Source: Rosettibacter firmus (GTDB lineage: Bacteria > Bacteroidota > Ignavibacteria > Ignavibacteriales > Melioribacteraceae). Taken from it: a stretch of DNA of 64,000 nucleotides. The stretch is from positions 1,240,001 to 1,304,000 of the forward strand of contig NZ_JAYKGJ010000001.1 of assembly GCF_036860695.1 (NCBI RefSeq). Reading direction: 5' to 3'. Numbering within the stretch: position 1 is the first letter of the stretch; each line of letters begins with the position of its first letter. Made by a program: the position numbers and the translations under genes. Below the pieces are notes generated by a model. It worked only from the letters and a program-made list of their open reading frames with translations. It was not told the origin of the DNA and did no database searches. This document shows positions 25,002 through 45,410 of this stretch, one piece after another.

Positions 25002-25838
25002 TTGAGCTTTTATCCACAACCCAATAAATACCAATGTGGTCCTTTTGCTCTCAAATATGCTCTCGTCATGTTAGGAATTTTTAAAGACGAAGATCAAATT
25101 GGAATCATTGCCGGTAGCACATGGTGGGCTGGAACAGACGAGTTTGGACTTTCACGTGCTGCAAGAAGATTTAATTGTAAAATGAAACATTTCCAATCAA
25201 GCAATCCAGATGATGCAAGAAGACTCTTGATACAAAATTTAAAAAAAGGTTATCCCTGTATTTTGAGTGTAAAAAACTGGGAACACTGGAATACTGTAGT
25301 AAGCTATCAAAAAGGAAAATTTGTTGTTATCGATAGCGAACTCGATAAAGTTGTAAGTGTTGTTACTTCTTCACAATTAATAAAAAACTGGAAATATATA
25401 GAAAAAGAAACTGGTATTGTTAGTTATGATGGTTATGCACTCATTCCTAAATTTAAAGTTCATACACGTGCTAAATTTACTCCAGAAAAAGCTATTCAAT
25501 TAATGTATGATAAAAATGAAGACCTTGCACGCAAATGGGATCAATATACAAACGACTTAATTACAATTTGTAAACCTCGAACAAAATTAAGCTACAATGT
25601 TATTACATTTACTGAATTTTTAAGACGAAATGAATTAAACCTTGTTAAAAGAGTTGCTAACTGGCATGGCGAACCAACTTATTCCGAATTAAAAAAAATT
25701 CTTATGAATATGAAATTTGTTGCAGAAGTCTATGATCTTGTAATCCCAGAAGACGAAGAAAAAAGAGCAACAATTGATGTGGCTTCTATTCTGATGATGT
25801 ATTCCTGTGGTAAATATGGAATGACACCAATATATTAA
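25002..25838 (+). CDS. Papain-like (C39-type fold) cysteine peptidase or transferase
   Basis: 278 aa, cytoplasmic (no signal or TM segment). The start is TTG after AAGAG; no ATG fits. The first 150 residues have the C39-like arrangement: QCGPFALKYALVMLG with catalytic Cys about 12 and Gln one residue before, WEHWNTVVSYQKGKF with the His, and FVVIDSE with the Asp. The C-terminal 100 residues are helical and of unknown nature. It is divergent from the ATP-grasp ligase/aspartokinase pair, and pairs of ATP-grasp ligases with papain-like proteins are known in peptide-modification systems. It is not a bacteriocin exporter domain because no ABC module is attached. Confidence 0.6.
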   Translation: MSFYPQPNKYQCGPFALKYALVMLGIFKDEDQIGIIAGSTWWAGTDEFGLSRAARRFNCKMKHFQSSNPDDARRLLIQNLKKGYPCILSVKNWEHWNTVVSYQKGKFVVIDSELDKVVSVVTSSQLIKNWKYIEKETGIVSYDGYALIPKFKVHTRAKFTPEKAIQLMYDKNEDLARKWDQYTNDLITICKPRTKLSYNVITFTEFLRRNELNLVKRVANWHGEPTYSELKKILMNMKFVAEVYDLVIPEDEEKRATIDVASILMMYSCGKYGMTPIY

Positions 25839-37204: not shown

Positions 37205-38197
37205 TTATTGAGATAAAATATTTTCGATTAGCTTTAATTCTTCTTCGGAAAAATCCAAATTGTTTAGAGTACCTACTGCATCATCAATTTGTTCAATTTT
37301 GCTTGCACCAATCAATGCAGAAGTAACGACCGGTTTTCTTAAAACCCAGGCTAATGACATTTGTGCTAATGTTTGATTTCTTTTTTTAGCGAGTTCATTT
37401 AGTTTCTTCACTTTTTCAAGTTTATCCTTTGTAATAAATTCTGGTTTTAAGAAACCCCACGGTTTTGAAGCACGTGAGCCCTGAGGTATACCATTTAGAT
37501 ATTTATCAGTAAGTAAACCCTGTGCTAATGGAGAAAATACGATACATCCAATACCTTCTGTTTCGAGAACATCTGTTAATCCATTTTCAATCCATCTATC
37601 GAACATATGATAACGAGGTTGATGAATAAGAAGATGATGACCCATTTGCTTAAGTATCTCTGCAGCTTTTTTGGTTTGTTCAGGATTATATTGAGAAATA
37701 CCAACATACAATGCTTTTCCACTTCGAATAATTTGATCGAGTGCACCCATTGTTTCTTCAAGAGGAGTTTCTGGATCCGGTCTATGATGATAAAAAATAT
37801 CCACGTAATCCAGTCCCATTCTTTTTAAACTCTGATCTAATGAAGCAATTAAATATTTACGAGAACCCCAGTTACCGTAAGGACCAGGCCACATATCCCA
37901 TCCTGCTTTTGTAGAAATCACCATTTCGTCGCGATAACTTTTAAAATCTTTTTTTAGTATAATACCAAAATTTTCTTCAGCAGAACCATAGGGAGGACCG
38001 TAATTATTTGCTAAATCAAAATGAGTAATACCTGAATCAAAAGCACGACGAATAATTGCTCTCCCATTTTCAAATACATCCACACCACCGAAATTATGCC
38101 ATAGACCAAGTGAAATTGCCGGAAGTTTTAAACCACTTTTTCCACAACGGTTATATTTCATTGATTCATATCTTTTATCGGATGCTAAATAATTCAA
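37205..38197 (-). CDS. Aldo/keto reductase, YghZ-like
   Basis: 330 aa TIM-barrel NADPH reductase. The catalytic tetrad is visible as Asp in FDLANNYGPP, its Tyr, Lys in ISTKAGWDMWPG and His in DIFYHHRPD. The sequence tracks E. coli YghZ (L-glyceraldehyde 3-phosphate reductase) closely from the first residues (NYLASDKRYESMKYNRCGKS). That homology plus GAGG upstream supports the TTG at 38197 as start over the ATG at 38161. A role in detoxifying glyceraldehyde phosphate or methylglyoxal is inferred. bfr follows directly. Confidence 0.9.
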   Translation of the reverse strand: MNYLASDKRYESMKYNRCGKSGLKLPAISLGLWHNFGGVDVFENGRAIIRRAFDSGITHFDLANNYGPPYGSAEENFGIILKKDFKSYRDEMVISTKAGWDMWPGPYGNWGSRKYLIASLDQSLKRMGLDYVDIFYHHRPDPETPLEETMGALDQIIRSGKALYVGISQYNPEQTKKAAEILKQMGHHLLIHQPRYHMFDRWIENGLTDVLETEGIGCIVFSPLAQGLLTDKYLNGIPQGSRASKPWGFLKPEFITKDKLEKVKKLNELAKKRNQTLAQMSLAWVLRKPVVTSALIGASKIEQIDDAVGTLNNLDFSEEELKLIENILSQ

Positions 38198-38444: not shown

Positions 38445-39224
38445 CTAAAACCTGACTAACATTCTTTCCCGATTAAATAATTTTATTGAAATTTTTGAGA
38501 ATACAATACTTGTAATTAAAGTAAAAACAAAAAGAAATATCAAATACCTATTGTAAAAAATGAGTGTGCCATTACTTATTAACACAAAGAAAACCATAAA
38601 AGGGGATAATACGAGAGTCGCTACGAACTGAGATGTTTGATACTTATTTACCAAACACGAAATAGTAATGGCTACAATATTAATAAAATAAGATATAACT
38701 GGAATTAAAATAAAAATAGAAAAAAGCCATTTCAGGCTAAATAAGTGAGACAATAAAAACCTATAATTATAATAGTATGAAACTATGAGAGTAGAGAAAT
38801 AAAAAAACCAGATTATAATAATTGTTGTAATTAAACTAACTAAGATTTTTCCCAAAAGAATTTCAAAATCCGTAATTGGTAGTGAAAATAAATTCTCTAT
38901 GGTTCTTTCCTCTTTTTCCTTAACTATAAAATCAATAGTTAAAAACATAGGAATAATAAATGACATCACTAAAAGATAATTTAAAAGTTTTATATCTGTA
39001 AGCATGATAATTATGAGATTATTATTATCGAGTAAAGGATTTTGCTGACGATATAAACTAAGTAATTCAGAATAATTATTTACTTGGATACTTTGATAAT
39101 CGACAATGGTTGGCAATATAAACATTAAAATAATTATCATAAAACCTGGTAATAAGAAAAGTAATCTTAGCTTATTAACTTTTATCTGGTGCATAAAAAT
39201 TATTTTAATATTATTTATCTTCAT
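38445..39224 (-). CDS. ABC-2 type permease of the peptide locus
   Basis: 259 aa with six predicted TM helices. Between TM1/TM2 and TM3 it has the conserved segment EKEERTIENLFSLPITDFE typical of ABC-2 permeases (NatB/BcrB-like). Its ATG overlaps the TGA of the ATPase gene by 4 bp (ATGA), so they are translationally coupled and form one transporter. Its base composition is even more A/T-rich than the flanks. It closes the five- or six-gene minus-strand locus. Export of, or self-protection against, the neighbouring hydrophobic peptides is the natural inference. Confidence 0.85.
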   Translation of the reverse strand: MKINNIKIIFMHQIKVNKLRLLFLLPGFMIIILMFILPTIVDYQSIQVNNYSELLSLYRQQNPLLDNNNLIIIMLTDIKLLNYLLVMSFIIPMFLTIDFIVKEKEERTIENLFSLPITDFEILLGKILVSLITTIIIIWFFYFSTLIVSYYYNYRFLLSHLFSLKWLFSIFILIPVISYFINIVAITISCLVNKYQTSQFVATLVLSPFMVFFVLISNGTLIFYNRYLIFLFVFTLITSIVFSKISIKLFNRERMLVRF

Positions 39225-39919
39225 GTTATTATCTTTTTATATAATTCTTCGATATTTATTCCTTGAGAATTATTTTCTTGAGTTTTTCGAATGTCCGAAA
39301 CTATTTCTCCTTTCTTCAAAAAAATATATCTGTTACATAGTTGCTCTAAATCGCTTAATATATGACTGCTAAAAATTATTATTTTGTTATTATTACTAAA
39401 ATTCTTTATGGTTTCTCTAATAGTAATTCTAACTCCTGGATCAAGAGCATTGAATGGTTCGTCTAAAATCAAAATATCTGGATTGTGTATTATAGATTTA
39501 ATGAACAATAATAATTGCTTCTGTCCCTTTGAAAAAGCTCCGACTTTTTTATTCAGGTTTAGATTATATTCATTCAGTTTATTCAAAATATCTGTTCGGG
39601 TTATATTATTAAAAAAACCAGCATAAAAACTTAGGTTTTCAAATGCATTTAATTTATTATAAAAGCCGGATTCTTCAGGCATATATCCAATAATTCTTCT
39701 AAAATTTTCTGGATTTACAAAGACATCATTCCCTTCAAAAGTGATAGTACCACTATCAGGTTTGTAAAGGGTTGCAAGTAATCTTAGTAATGTAGTTTTT
39801 CCTGCACCATTTGGTCCAATCAGCCCTACTATTTCACCTTCGGATAAAGTGAAATTAATATTTTTCAATATAAGTGTATTATTTAAATATTTATCTACCT
39901 TAAATAATTCTAAAATCAT
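39221..39919 (-). CDS. ABC transporter ATP-binding protein of the peptide locus
   Basis: 232 aa, a single nucleotide-binding domain. Walker A is GPNGAGKTT (about 36-44), the signature is degenerate (AFSKGQKQ instead of LSGGQ), Walker B is DILILDEPFNALDPG and the H-loop is SSHILSDLEQ. No C39 peptidase or TM domain is fused, so this is not a bacteriocin-processing exporter (PCAT). It resembles the ATPases of two-component antibiotic or bacteriocin immunity transporters (BcrA, LanF type). It lies 27 bp after the second peptide ORF. Confidence 0.88.
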   Translation of the reverse strand: MILELFKVDKYLNNTLILKNINFTLSEGEIVGLIGPNGAGKTTLLRLLATLYKPDSGTITFEGNDVFVNPENFRRIIGYMPEESGFYNKLNAFENLSFYAGFFNNITRTDILNKLNEYNLNLNKKVGAFSKGQKQLLLFIKSIIHNPDILILDEPFNALDPGVRITIRETIKNFSNNNKIIIFSSHILSDLEQLCNRYIFLKKGEIVSDIRKTQENNSQGINIEELYKKIIT

Positions 39920-39946
39920 AAGTTTATTTATTTTTATTAAATAAAT

Positions 39947-40160
39947 TCAATAACTCCTATTATGCATCGGTGCTATATTTTTTATTAACCGTGCAATTGC
40001 ATATCCAGCACAAAATGCAGTGAAAAAAATACCTGCTGAGTTAGCAACAACAACATCTTTAATGGACGACAACAATATCACTCCAGATTGCGCAATCGGT
40101 ATCCAGAAGATTACCAACATTAATATTAGCTAATACTTCGATATTTGTTATTTCTTTCAT
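39947..40160 (-). pseudogene. Second leader-type peptide, leader and hydrophobic core in different frames
   Basis: The ATG at 40160 has AAGAAGG 5 nt upstream and opens MKEITNIEVLANINVG, whose start and hydrophobic spacing parallel the first peptide's leader (Ile at -4, Leu at -7, Gly at -1, but Val at -2). That frame ends at 40059 after 33 codons. In the +1 frame an ORF (40120-39947, 57 codons from an ATG with no ribosome site) encodes a strongly hydrophobic peptide: IPIAQSGVILLSS, then VVVANSAGIFFTAFCAG and YAIARLIKN. The overlap suggests a one-base insertion, a recoding site, or two overlapping genes. It is placed between the first peptide and the ABC ATPase. Confidence 0.5.
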
Positions 40161-40206
40161 ATGAACCTTCTTTAAAATGGACTATTCTTTGGAAAAAAGG
40201 AACCTA

Positions 40207-40334
40207 CTAAAGACCGATTGCAAAGGCTCCTAAGCCACCAGCAATGCCAACTGCAGTTACTAAAACCATAGCCCCCCAAGCTAATCGCTCGCCCCATTTA
40301 TTTCCTGAATTTCTTCTACATTTAGTTCTTTCAT
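40207..40334 (-). pseudogene. Double-glycine-leader bacteriocin-like peptide with a G-tract frameshift
   Basis: The ATG at 40334 (GGAGGG just upstream) opens MKELNVEEIQEING, a textbook double-glycine leader of the lactobin/cerein 7B kind, but the frame stops four codons later. One base more in the GGGG run at about 40292-40295 would read ING-G followed by ERLAWGAMVL and ending GGLGAFAIGL, a 27-residue hydrophobic core with several GxxxG-type spacings, stop at 40207. So leader, GG site and core are all present but split by a single-base shift in a homopolymer. It starts 7 bp after the small membrane protein gene. Pseudogene, base-calling error and -1 frameshifting are all possible. Confidence 0.65.
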
Positions 40335-40341
40335 CCCTCCA

Positions 40342-40710
40342 TTAATTCGATAATTTCTTCCTATCTTTTAGCAGGAAATATGAAGTATAAATTCCAACAA
40401 GGCTCATTACTATAAAAGCTCCCATTTTGATAAATAGTTCTGCATCTTTGACAAAAAATAATACAAACATAAAAGCAAGAAAATAAACTGTGTTTAATGC
40501 TAAATATCCAGGAATACTTGTGGGGAAATATTTATTATTAACATTATACTTTTCTCCAACATAAATTGAAATGATCGCACTTAACAATGGAATAATCCCT
40601 GGAATAATTCCCATTTCTCTCCGTGCAAAATATAATATCATCAAAGTAGATATTGATGTTGCTATAAAAAGCCAGAATAAAATATGAAATAAGTTTTTCT
40701 TAGAACTCAT
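40342..40710 (-). CDS. Small multi-pass membrane protein, candidate immunity protein
   Basis: 122 aa with about four TM helices (roughly 8-27, 35-52, 68-87, 93-114) and a basic C-terminal tail (KDRKKLSN). I recognise no family. Its position between a C39 peptidase fragment and two double-glycine-type peptides, with a 7-bp gap to the first peptide, suggests an immunity role, since small membrane immunity proteins are usual in class II bacteriocin loci. AGGGAGAA precedes the ATG. Function is inferred from context only. Confidence 0.6.
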   Translation of the reverse strand: MSSKKNLFHILFWLFIATSISTLMILYFARREMGIIPGIIPLLSAIISIYVGEKYNVNNKYFPTSIPGYLALNTVYFLAFMFVLFFVKDAELFIKMGAFIVMSLVGIYTSYFLLKDRKKLSN

Positions 40711-40727
40711 TTCATTCTCCCTAAAAA

Positions 40728-40904
40728 TTAATATAACATATAATTATAAATTATTGTGTTCATCATCTCGCAAATTACGGGAAAGGATATATTACAACCA
40801 TAGTATTTGAGAATTGTTAATAAAAAGGGAGAATCACAATCCGTTTTTTCACATTGTCTTACCAATGGATATTTTATGATCTTTAAGCCCTCAAGAAAAG
40901 TCAT
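40728..40904 (-). pseudogene. Truncated C39 leader-peptidase fragment
   Basis: 58 codons starting ATG at 40904, with GAGG 6 nt upstream. Residues 11-48 read as the N-terminus of the C39 peptidase domain of bacteriocin-processing ABC exporters: KYPLVRQCEKTDC followed by LLTILKYYGCNISF. The catalytic Cys23 and the oxyanion Gln six residues before it are kept, but the usual DCG is DCD. The frame ends before the catalytic His and Asp and before any TM or ATPase domain. So it is a remnant or a minimal fragment, first in the peptide locus. It cannot be an active protease as it stands. Confidence 0.65.
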
Positions 40905-41117
40905 TTAAACCTCTTATATAACAACTTTTCTTCTACTGAAAATTTACGATATCATGAAGATATATCAAAAAAAATTTTCTAAATAATATTTTTTCTAATT
41001 TGTATTAAGTTTGTTAATACATACAATTCATGTTATACATCTTTACAAGAAAATGTAAAATGCTTTTATACTCATTTGCAAAATATTTTAATCTATTCCC
41101 CAATTCTTTAAAAGCAT

Positions 41118-41468
41118 TCACTCATAATATTGCATCAATTCATGTCCAAGAAATTTTATTACTGCTGTTATAACTCCAAGATCATCAAGATAACCAATTA
41201 GTGGTGCTAAATCTGGAATTGTATCAATAGGACTGATAAAATAAATCAACGCACCAATGACAATTGATTTACGATACCATGGAACACTTTTATCTTTCAT
41301 GTATCGGTATAATGCTCTTACATCTTTGGCAAATCGAATTTTGTTGCCAACTTTTTCTAACTTTGTCCATAAACTTTCTTCAATGAAACTTTCTTTTTCT
41401 TGAAATTCTTTTTCTGAATTAACTGTGCTTAATTCTTTTAAATCCCTATCATAAAATTCGTATGCCAT
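41118..41468 (-). CDS. DUF1232 (YkvA-family) protein
   Basis: 116 aa. The family core is VPWYRKSIVIGALIYFISPI followed by DTIPDLAPLIGYLDDLGVI, a short hydrophobic helix plus amphipathic segment. The N-terminal half is charged and helical. The molecular function of the family is unknown. Its ATG lies 2 bp after the stop of the S9 peptidase gene, so the two are translationally linked, which may hint at a shared process. Confidence 0.88.
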   Translation of the reverse strand: MAYEFYDRDLKELSTVNSEKEFQEKESFIEESLWTKLEKVGNKIRFAKDVRALYRYMKDKSVPWYRKSIVIGALIYFISPIDTIPDLAPLIGYLDDLGVITAVIKFLGHELMQYYE

Positions 41469-44774: not shown

Positions 44775-45410
44775 ATGAATGTAAAAGAAAAAATATTAAA
44801 CCACGCCGAAGAAATCTTTTTTCTGAATGGATTTCACAAAATAACAATGGATGAATTTGCATCTTCACTTAAGATGAGTAAAAAAACAATTTATAAATAT
44901 TTCCCTTCAAAAGAAGATCTGGTAAAAGCAACAGCTCATTCATTTATGCAAAAAATTAAAAGTGAAATAGAAAGTGTAGTTAACAGTAAACATCACTCAA
45001 TAGAAAAAATTGTTGCTATAGTTAATATCATAAAAAACATTGGCTTACATAAAATGAGTGAAAAATGGTTAGAAGATTTACGACATCATCAACCATCTTT
45101 GTGGAAAGAAATCAATTCTTTCAGAACAAAGATGATAAACAAAAACATATCAATAATATTTCATCAAGGCGTAAAAGAAGGTTATATCATTGACGTGCCT
45201 CATCAAATAATAATAAATATCTTTATGAGTTCAGTTCAATCAATTGTAAATCCAGACTTTATAATGAACAACAACTTTTCTATAAGCGAAGCAATCGACT
45301 CAACACTAAAGATACTAATTAATGGAATACTCACAGAAAAAGGGAAAAAGGTTTATAATAAATTAATCAAGAATAAAATGCAGGTTCAAAATGATTCCGA
45401 TGAAGAATAA
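44775..45410 (+). CDS. TetR-family transcriptional regulator
   Basis: 211 aa. The N-terminal helix-turn-helix is clear: FHKITMDEFASSLKMSKKTIYKYFPSKEDL. The C-terminal ligand domain is not identifiable. It overlaps the HlyD-like gene by 10-20 bp and so is translated together with it. It probably represses the efflux genes that follow. Confidence 0.9.
   Translation: MNVKEKILNHAEEIFFLNGFHKITMDEFASSLKMSKKTIYKYFPSKEDLVKATAHSFMQKIKSEIESVVNSKHHSIEKIVAIVNIIKNIGLHKMSEKWLEDLRHHQPSLWKEINSFRTKMINKNISIIFHQGVKEGYIIDVPHQIIINIFMSSVQSIVNPDFIMNNNFSISEAIDSTLKILINGILTEKGKKVYNKLIKNKMQVQNDSDEE

Follow-up and report, generated by a model that had tools for sequence, protein, structure and literature searches.

Results

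Gene content and setting of the locus

Six elements lie on the minus strand between positions 38445 and 40904 of the window, by which we mean the whole stretch of 64,000 nucleotides analysed, and they follow one another 5'->3' on that strand as a C39 peptidase fragment, a gene for a protein with four transmembrane segments (4-TM), two short peptides (A and B), an ABC ATPase and an ABC permease (Table 1). The preliminary description of this DNA had claimed six elements on one strand, and all of them were found where it placed them. The only intact parts are the 4-TM gene and the genes of the ATPase and the permease, the latter two overlapping by 4 bases. To the left, the site is bordered by an aldo/keto reductase gene accompanied by ferritin-like, NUDIX and murI genes, and to the right by a DUF1232 gene and an S9 peptidase gene. 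Eleven flanking genes are full length by comparison with their relatives, and no stop or break was seen in them. As the named relatives of the S9 peptidase belong to Ignavibacteria and allied MAGs (70% identity for the nearest), the source genome (3.24 Mb, 99.98% complete) was assigned to that lineage.

Table 1. Features of the locus and its borders, in the order in which they are read on the minus strand
Feature	Position in the window	Strand	Evidence
DUF1232 protein, right border of the site	41118..41468	-	Profile match and relatives
C39 gene promoter region	40905..41010	-	DNA alignment with the G017 and G009 copies
N-terminal remnant of a C39 peptidase-ABC exporter, truncated, 58 aa	40728..40904	-	Pfam search and relatives
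Putative deletion junction	40710..40755	-	End of C39 similarity, then the 4-TM gene; arrangement of genes in G002 and G017
4-TM protein, 122 aa, intact	40342..40710	-	Hydrophobicity, model, relative at the same site
Leader of peptide A, MKELNVEEIQEING..., continues to a stop	40281..40334	-	Leader pattern and region analysis
Peptide A hydrophobic Gly-rich core, ERLAWGAMVLVTAVGIAGGLGAFAIGL, in another frame than the leader	40207..40291	-	Frame analysis
Start of peptide B, leader-like, MKEITNIEVLANINVGN..., without a GG motif, continues to a stop	40059..40160	-	Frame analysis
Peptide B hydrophobic core, open in another frame	39947..40129	-	Frame analysis; TIGR03949 at E=0.22 only
ABC ATPase, 232 aa, intact	39221..39919	-	PF00005, 4e-32, over the Pfam cut-off
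ABC-2 permease, 259 aa, intact	38445..39224	-	PF12679, 43.7 bits (cut-off 27.2)
Aldo/keto reductase, left border of the site	37205..38197	-	Relatives and flank-integrity check

The C39 fragment and its promoter

In C39-ABC exporters, the C39 domain cuts after the double glycine (GG) of the leader and the ABC part exports the peptide. The fragment in the window remains on its own under the Pfam cut-off (PF03412, 17.1 bits vs 22). Over 50 residues it shares 50% identity with the C39 domain of the exporter in a genome of the same family, G017 (E=1.6e-11), and its identity to the exporters of two genomes outside the family, G053 and G038, is 44-48%. The active-site Gln and Asp-Cys are kept while the remainder of the domain is lost, together with about 90% of the length of the gene. 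The exporter is thus represented by its first ~50 codons only, and a search at E 1e-80 recovered no C39-ABC exporter elsewhere in the genome, where the single PF03412 match above the cut-off is a standalone protein. A C39-like protein at about 25008-25394 of the window, in a 307-aa frame, was considered and set aside as an exporter, being standalone with no ABC part seen.

The promoter region of the C39 gene contains a conserved block with 72-76% identity. A TTGATA-like -35 element following a T-run is kept, and the poly-C run found in the relatives' spacer is replaced by TATCTTCATGATATC. In the G017 copy of the C39-ABC gene, the first ~10 codons are out of frame with the rest (L024:15149-15271).

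Peptides, 4-TM protein and ABC pair

The leader of peptide A is preceded by a GGAGG Shine-Dalgarno sequence; only 2 of the 1500 dinucleotide-shuffled versions of the region contained a comparable leader with Shine-Dalgarno match, and the leader DNA is 82% identical to that of a G017 leader (E=2e-8). The match of this leader to the GG type is beyond chance, yet the leader is out of frame with its core. Peptide B is the weaker case, with a leader that ends in NINVGN instead of GG and that the leader pattern search missed.

Profile methods, by which the preliminary description had proposed to search the 4-TM protein and the peptides, placed the former in no Pfam family and returned for the core of peptide B only the match listed in Table 1. 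The 4-TM protein has four hydrophobic segments, and its single-sequence structure prediction consists of four helices at a low confidence (pLDDT 68, pTM 0.39), too poor for a fold search. No relatives were found in a search of named genomes, and weak matches in G021 were dropped because they sit among unrelated genes. A degenerate homologue with stops occupies the same site in G002, a genome of the same genus. We consider the 4-TM protein a candidate immunity or accessory protein.

The models that best match the ATPase are GldA, DrrA and TIGR03740 (lantibiotic protection), all of them under cut-off. A phylum-wide search gave no ortholog of it, the best matches being many ATPases of the phylum at 39% identity, and a second DNA match in its own genome, on contig 3, covers 53 bases of the nucleotide-binding region. 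Neither 58 near genomes nor 395 genomes of the phylum yielded a close relative of the permease, and its tie to the peptides is therefore one of position only. ABC exporters next to such peptides would most likely be what protects the producer, and the pair is a candidate self-protection exporter.

The same site and related clusters in other genomes

Large double-glycine peptide clusters occupy the same chromosomal site in G002 and G017, with a C39-ABC exporter, a TM protein, MauE, a thiol oxidoreductase, GG peptides and ABC exporters. The comparison of gene order that the preliminary description had suggested thus bears out its naming of a double-glycine peptide locus. In G002, the left border is that of the window, and next to the aldo/keto reductase gene lie a degenerate leader peptide and the 4-TM pseudogene. 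Behind them come an ABC ATPase paired with a protein of 540 aa, two GG peptides, a thiol oxidoreductase, then a MauE-like protein, a membrane protein and a C39-ABC exporter without its N-terminal part, followed by a nucleotidyltransferase, an acyl-carrier-like protein and a maturation protein. The G017 island, of ~24 kb, encodes four GG-type peptides with full cores and one leader with a very short core, along with the C39-ABC exporter, MauE, the thiol oxidoreductase and ABC exporters. Two peptides stand in tandem in both genomes. Between the same borders, G009 carries secreted proteins and two fragments of a C39 start. G001, of the same genus, has no cluster at either flank, and its right flank is inverted.

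G017, G053 and G038 have one core order in common, C39-ABC / TM222 / MauE / thiol oxidoreductase / GG peptide, in the latter two with an intact C39-ABC exporter and a GG peptide, and G002 has the same order without the C39 end. The MauE and redox proteins of the relatives are supported by curated models, and their peptides come near class II models, under the cut-off in each case (TIGR03949, 17.1 bits vs 21.5; PF10439, 20.9 vs 27.1).

Three further observations concern these genomes. A streptomycin adenylyltransferase family protein (PF04439) lies within peptide clusters (L024:16278-17126 and L027:11126-11974), with 90% identity between two genera. Further on in G017, a separate peptide operon with a C13 promoter (L079:2921-7743) encodes an ABC exporter, an HlyD-like protein, a Cys-rich 127-aa peptide and a PapB-like radical SAM maturase. 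A TetR gene beside an HlyD/ABC operon is a pseudogene with 9 stops in G001 (L078:10681-11151) and whole in the window (44775-45410).

Poly-C promoters in relatives

In front of the C39 starts of G017 and G009, the spacer following a TTGAC-type -35 element contains a run of 8-13 C, and the same layout precedes other operons in G008, G055, G056 and G017. Such sites occur in 8 of 164 genomes of the order, where the backwards pattern has a single match, and they are absent from the genome of the window. The runs (L024:15328, that is G017:C2:273331-273349; L025:7701 and 9989; L026:7146; L079:7808; L081:7140; L108-L117) sit upstream of peptide-export and secreted-protein genes, the -35 element being not recognised in L081. 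Furthermore, G009 and G017 carry duplicates, placed before different genes, of a block that combines the 3' end of DUF1232 with the poly-C promoter and the C39 start (L025:9667-10205, L024:15122-15573, L026:6910-7355).

Discussion

A cluster probably caught in decay

The locus is very probably what remains of a collapsed double-glycine peptide cluster of bacteriocin type, and decay is the simplest account of it. Descent from a cluster with C39-processed GG peptides is indicated by the homologous parts that relatives carry at the same site. Of the two possibilities raised in the preliminary description, a dying locus is thus favoured by the fuller clusters of the relatives, while a mis-sequenced intact locus is contradicted by the absence of the rest of the C39-ABC gene from the genome and by the full length of the 11 flanking genes. 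Indeed, with these neighbours unbroken, generally poor sequence is unlikely and sequencing error does not explain the locus as a whole, although one of the peptides may hold a local error. The earlier statement that every peptide or protease part is broken holds for the peptides and for the peptidase; the latter was not interrupted by a simple frame error, being cut by deletion or rearrangement.

The window retains both ends of a cluster of the relatives' type, and its central part is gone together with the remainder of the C39-ABC gene: since similarity to C39 runs out near codon 52 and the start of the 4-TM gene is at 40710, all that lay between them is missing. The interval matching this part spans roughly 6-7 kb in G002 and G017. 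The degenerate leader and 4-TM pseudogene of G002, next to the aldo/keto reductase gene, provide an order from which the junction in the window can be derived. That there was a deletion, and how large it was, we infer from the arrangement of genes in other species rather than from an intact copy in the same species, which counts against this reading, and blastn did not locate the exact breakpoint, being too noisy in AT-rich DNA.

In its living form, such a cluster would have relied on a C39-ABC transporter cutting and exporting small peptides with GG leaders. Assistance would have come from a membrane protein, a MauE-like protein and a thioredoxin-like thiol oxidoreductase, which probably handle the cysteines of the peptides, and the producer would probably have been protected by ABC exporters and small membrane proteins encoded next to the peptides. 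In the lineage of the window, a deletion of roughly 7 kb would have fused the first ~50 C39 codons to the opposite end of the cluster, and the two peptide genes that are left have lost their frames. The 4-TM gene and the ABC pair stayed open, which would agree with their being kept against the peptides of neighbours or with their not yet having decayed, and it is plausible that selection retained them. The immunity role is putative, as are two-peptide activity and any antibacterial activity.

Other readings bear on parts of this scenario. It is possible, if rather unlikely, that the ABC pair is an ordinary ABC-2 exporter of another substrate that came to lie beside peptide debris by chance. 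The proximity of the ATPase to generic models of the GldA/DrrA type, its 39% identity to many ATPases of the phylum and the GC content of the pair (25%, lower than the rest) would agree with this, whereas the pair is on the same strand only 27 bases downstream of peptide B, and ABC exporter genes directly adjoin GG peptides in G017 as well. A C39 fragment that never belonged to a full exporter here, but came as a portable block of DUF1232 tail, promoter and C39 start behind which peptides and ABC pair were placed, is improbable. Such blocks do precede secreted-protein genes, twice in G009 and once on contig 12 of G017, but their C39 fragments have ~17-25 codons without the catalytic Cys, against ~50 codons with the Cys motif in the window, and G002, of the same genus, carries the exporter body at this site. 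Least probable of all are functional peptides exported by another transporter, with frame breaks due to sequencing or assembly errors. The leader and core of each peptide are indeed only one frame step apart, and the break in peptide A falls within a short G-run, but the two breaks within 200 bases stand beside a C39 gene lacking ~90% of its length while 0 of 11 neighbour genes are broken, and the genome has no other C39-ABC exporter.

The collapsed cluster appears to be seen in mid-decay, with candidate immunity genes outlasting the weapon. Class II-like GG-peptide clusters, which in Bacteroidetes are known so far mainly as bacteroidetocins, are now placed in an Ignavibacteria lineage; the titles and abstracts of the open literature, of incomplete coverage, hold no evident account of such clusters in Ignavibacteria.

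Poly-C promoters and the site as a possible hot spot

The position of the relatives' C-runs between -35 and -10 suggests phase-variable promoters. These promoters, known here from DNA alone, resemble those under slippage control of the kind exemplified by sabA of Helicobacter pylori (PMC2715451). The operons found at the site are of several types (GG bacteriocins, a radical-SAM peptide and secreted proteins). We tentatively propose, as a possibility short of even, that the site between DUF1232 and the aldo/keto reductase and ferritin-like genes is a hot spot of the family, where exported-peptide operons come under a portable phase-variable promoter (-35 TTGACA, spacer of 8-13 C, -10) and slippage in the C-run switches the clusters on and off; the copy in the window would have lost its C-run and its weapons and kept its shield. 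The poly-C promoter finding is more novel than the decayed locus, which is a mostly ordinary case of gene decay, and it would make phase variation of peptide clusters directly testable in an Ignavibacteria lineage.

Comparison with known systems

The ABC pair is reminiscent of LanFEG immunity transporters (TIGR03740), in that the short ATPase aligns over the full model and is accompanied by an ABC-2 permease. The ATPase scores 142.7 bits vs a cut-off of 309.75, and the window differs by having one permease instead of two, with no lanthipeptide enzymes seen. Class IIb two-peptide bacteriocins (TIGR03949, PF10439) share with the present clusters a GG leader, short hydrophobic Gly-rich cores and the tandem pairs of G002 and G017, at scores that remain under the curated cut-offs, and the peptides of the window are broken.

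The closest described system is the bacteroidetocin locus of Bacteroides and Parabacteroides (PMC6671954), in which full activity requires both the TM protein and the thiol oxidoreductase. These two components are absent from the window and present in G002, G017, G053 and G038, and the paired cysteines of the Ignavibacteria peptides would fit a similar need. A GG-leader peptide, a C39-ABC exporter, a multi-TM protein of unknown function and a thiol oxidoreductase are common to bacteroidetocin loci and to the clusters of the relatives. Beyond this set, the Ignavibacteria clusters have MauE, several peptides and ABC exporters; bacteroidetocin loci have no immunity gene. The window, reduced to fragments, is a degenerate member of this known kind.
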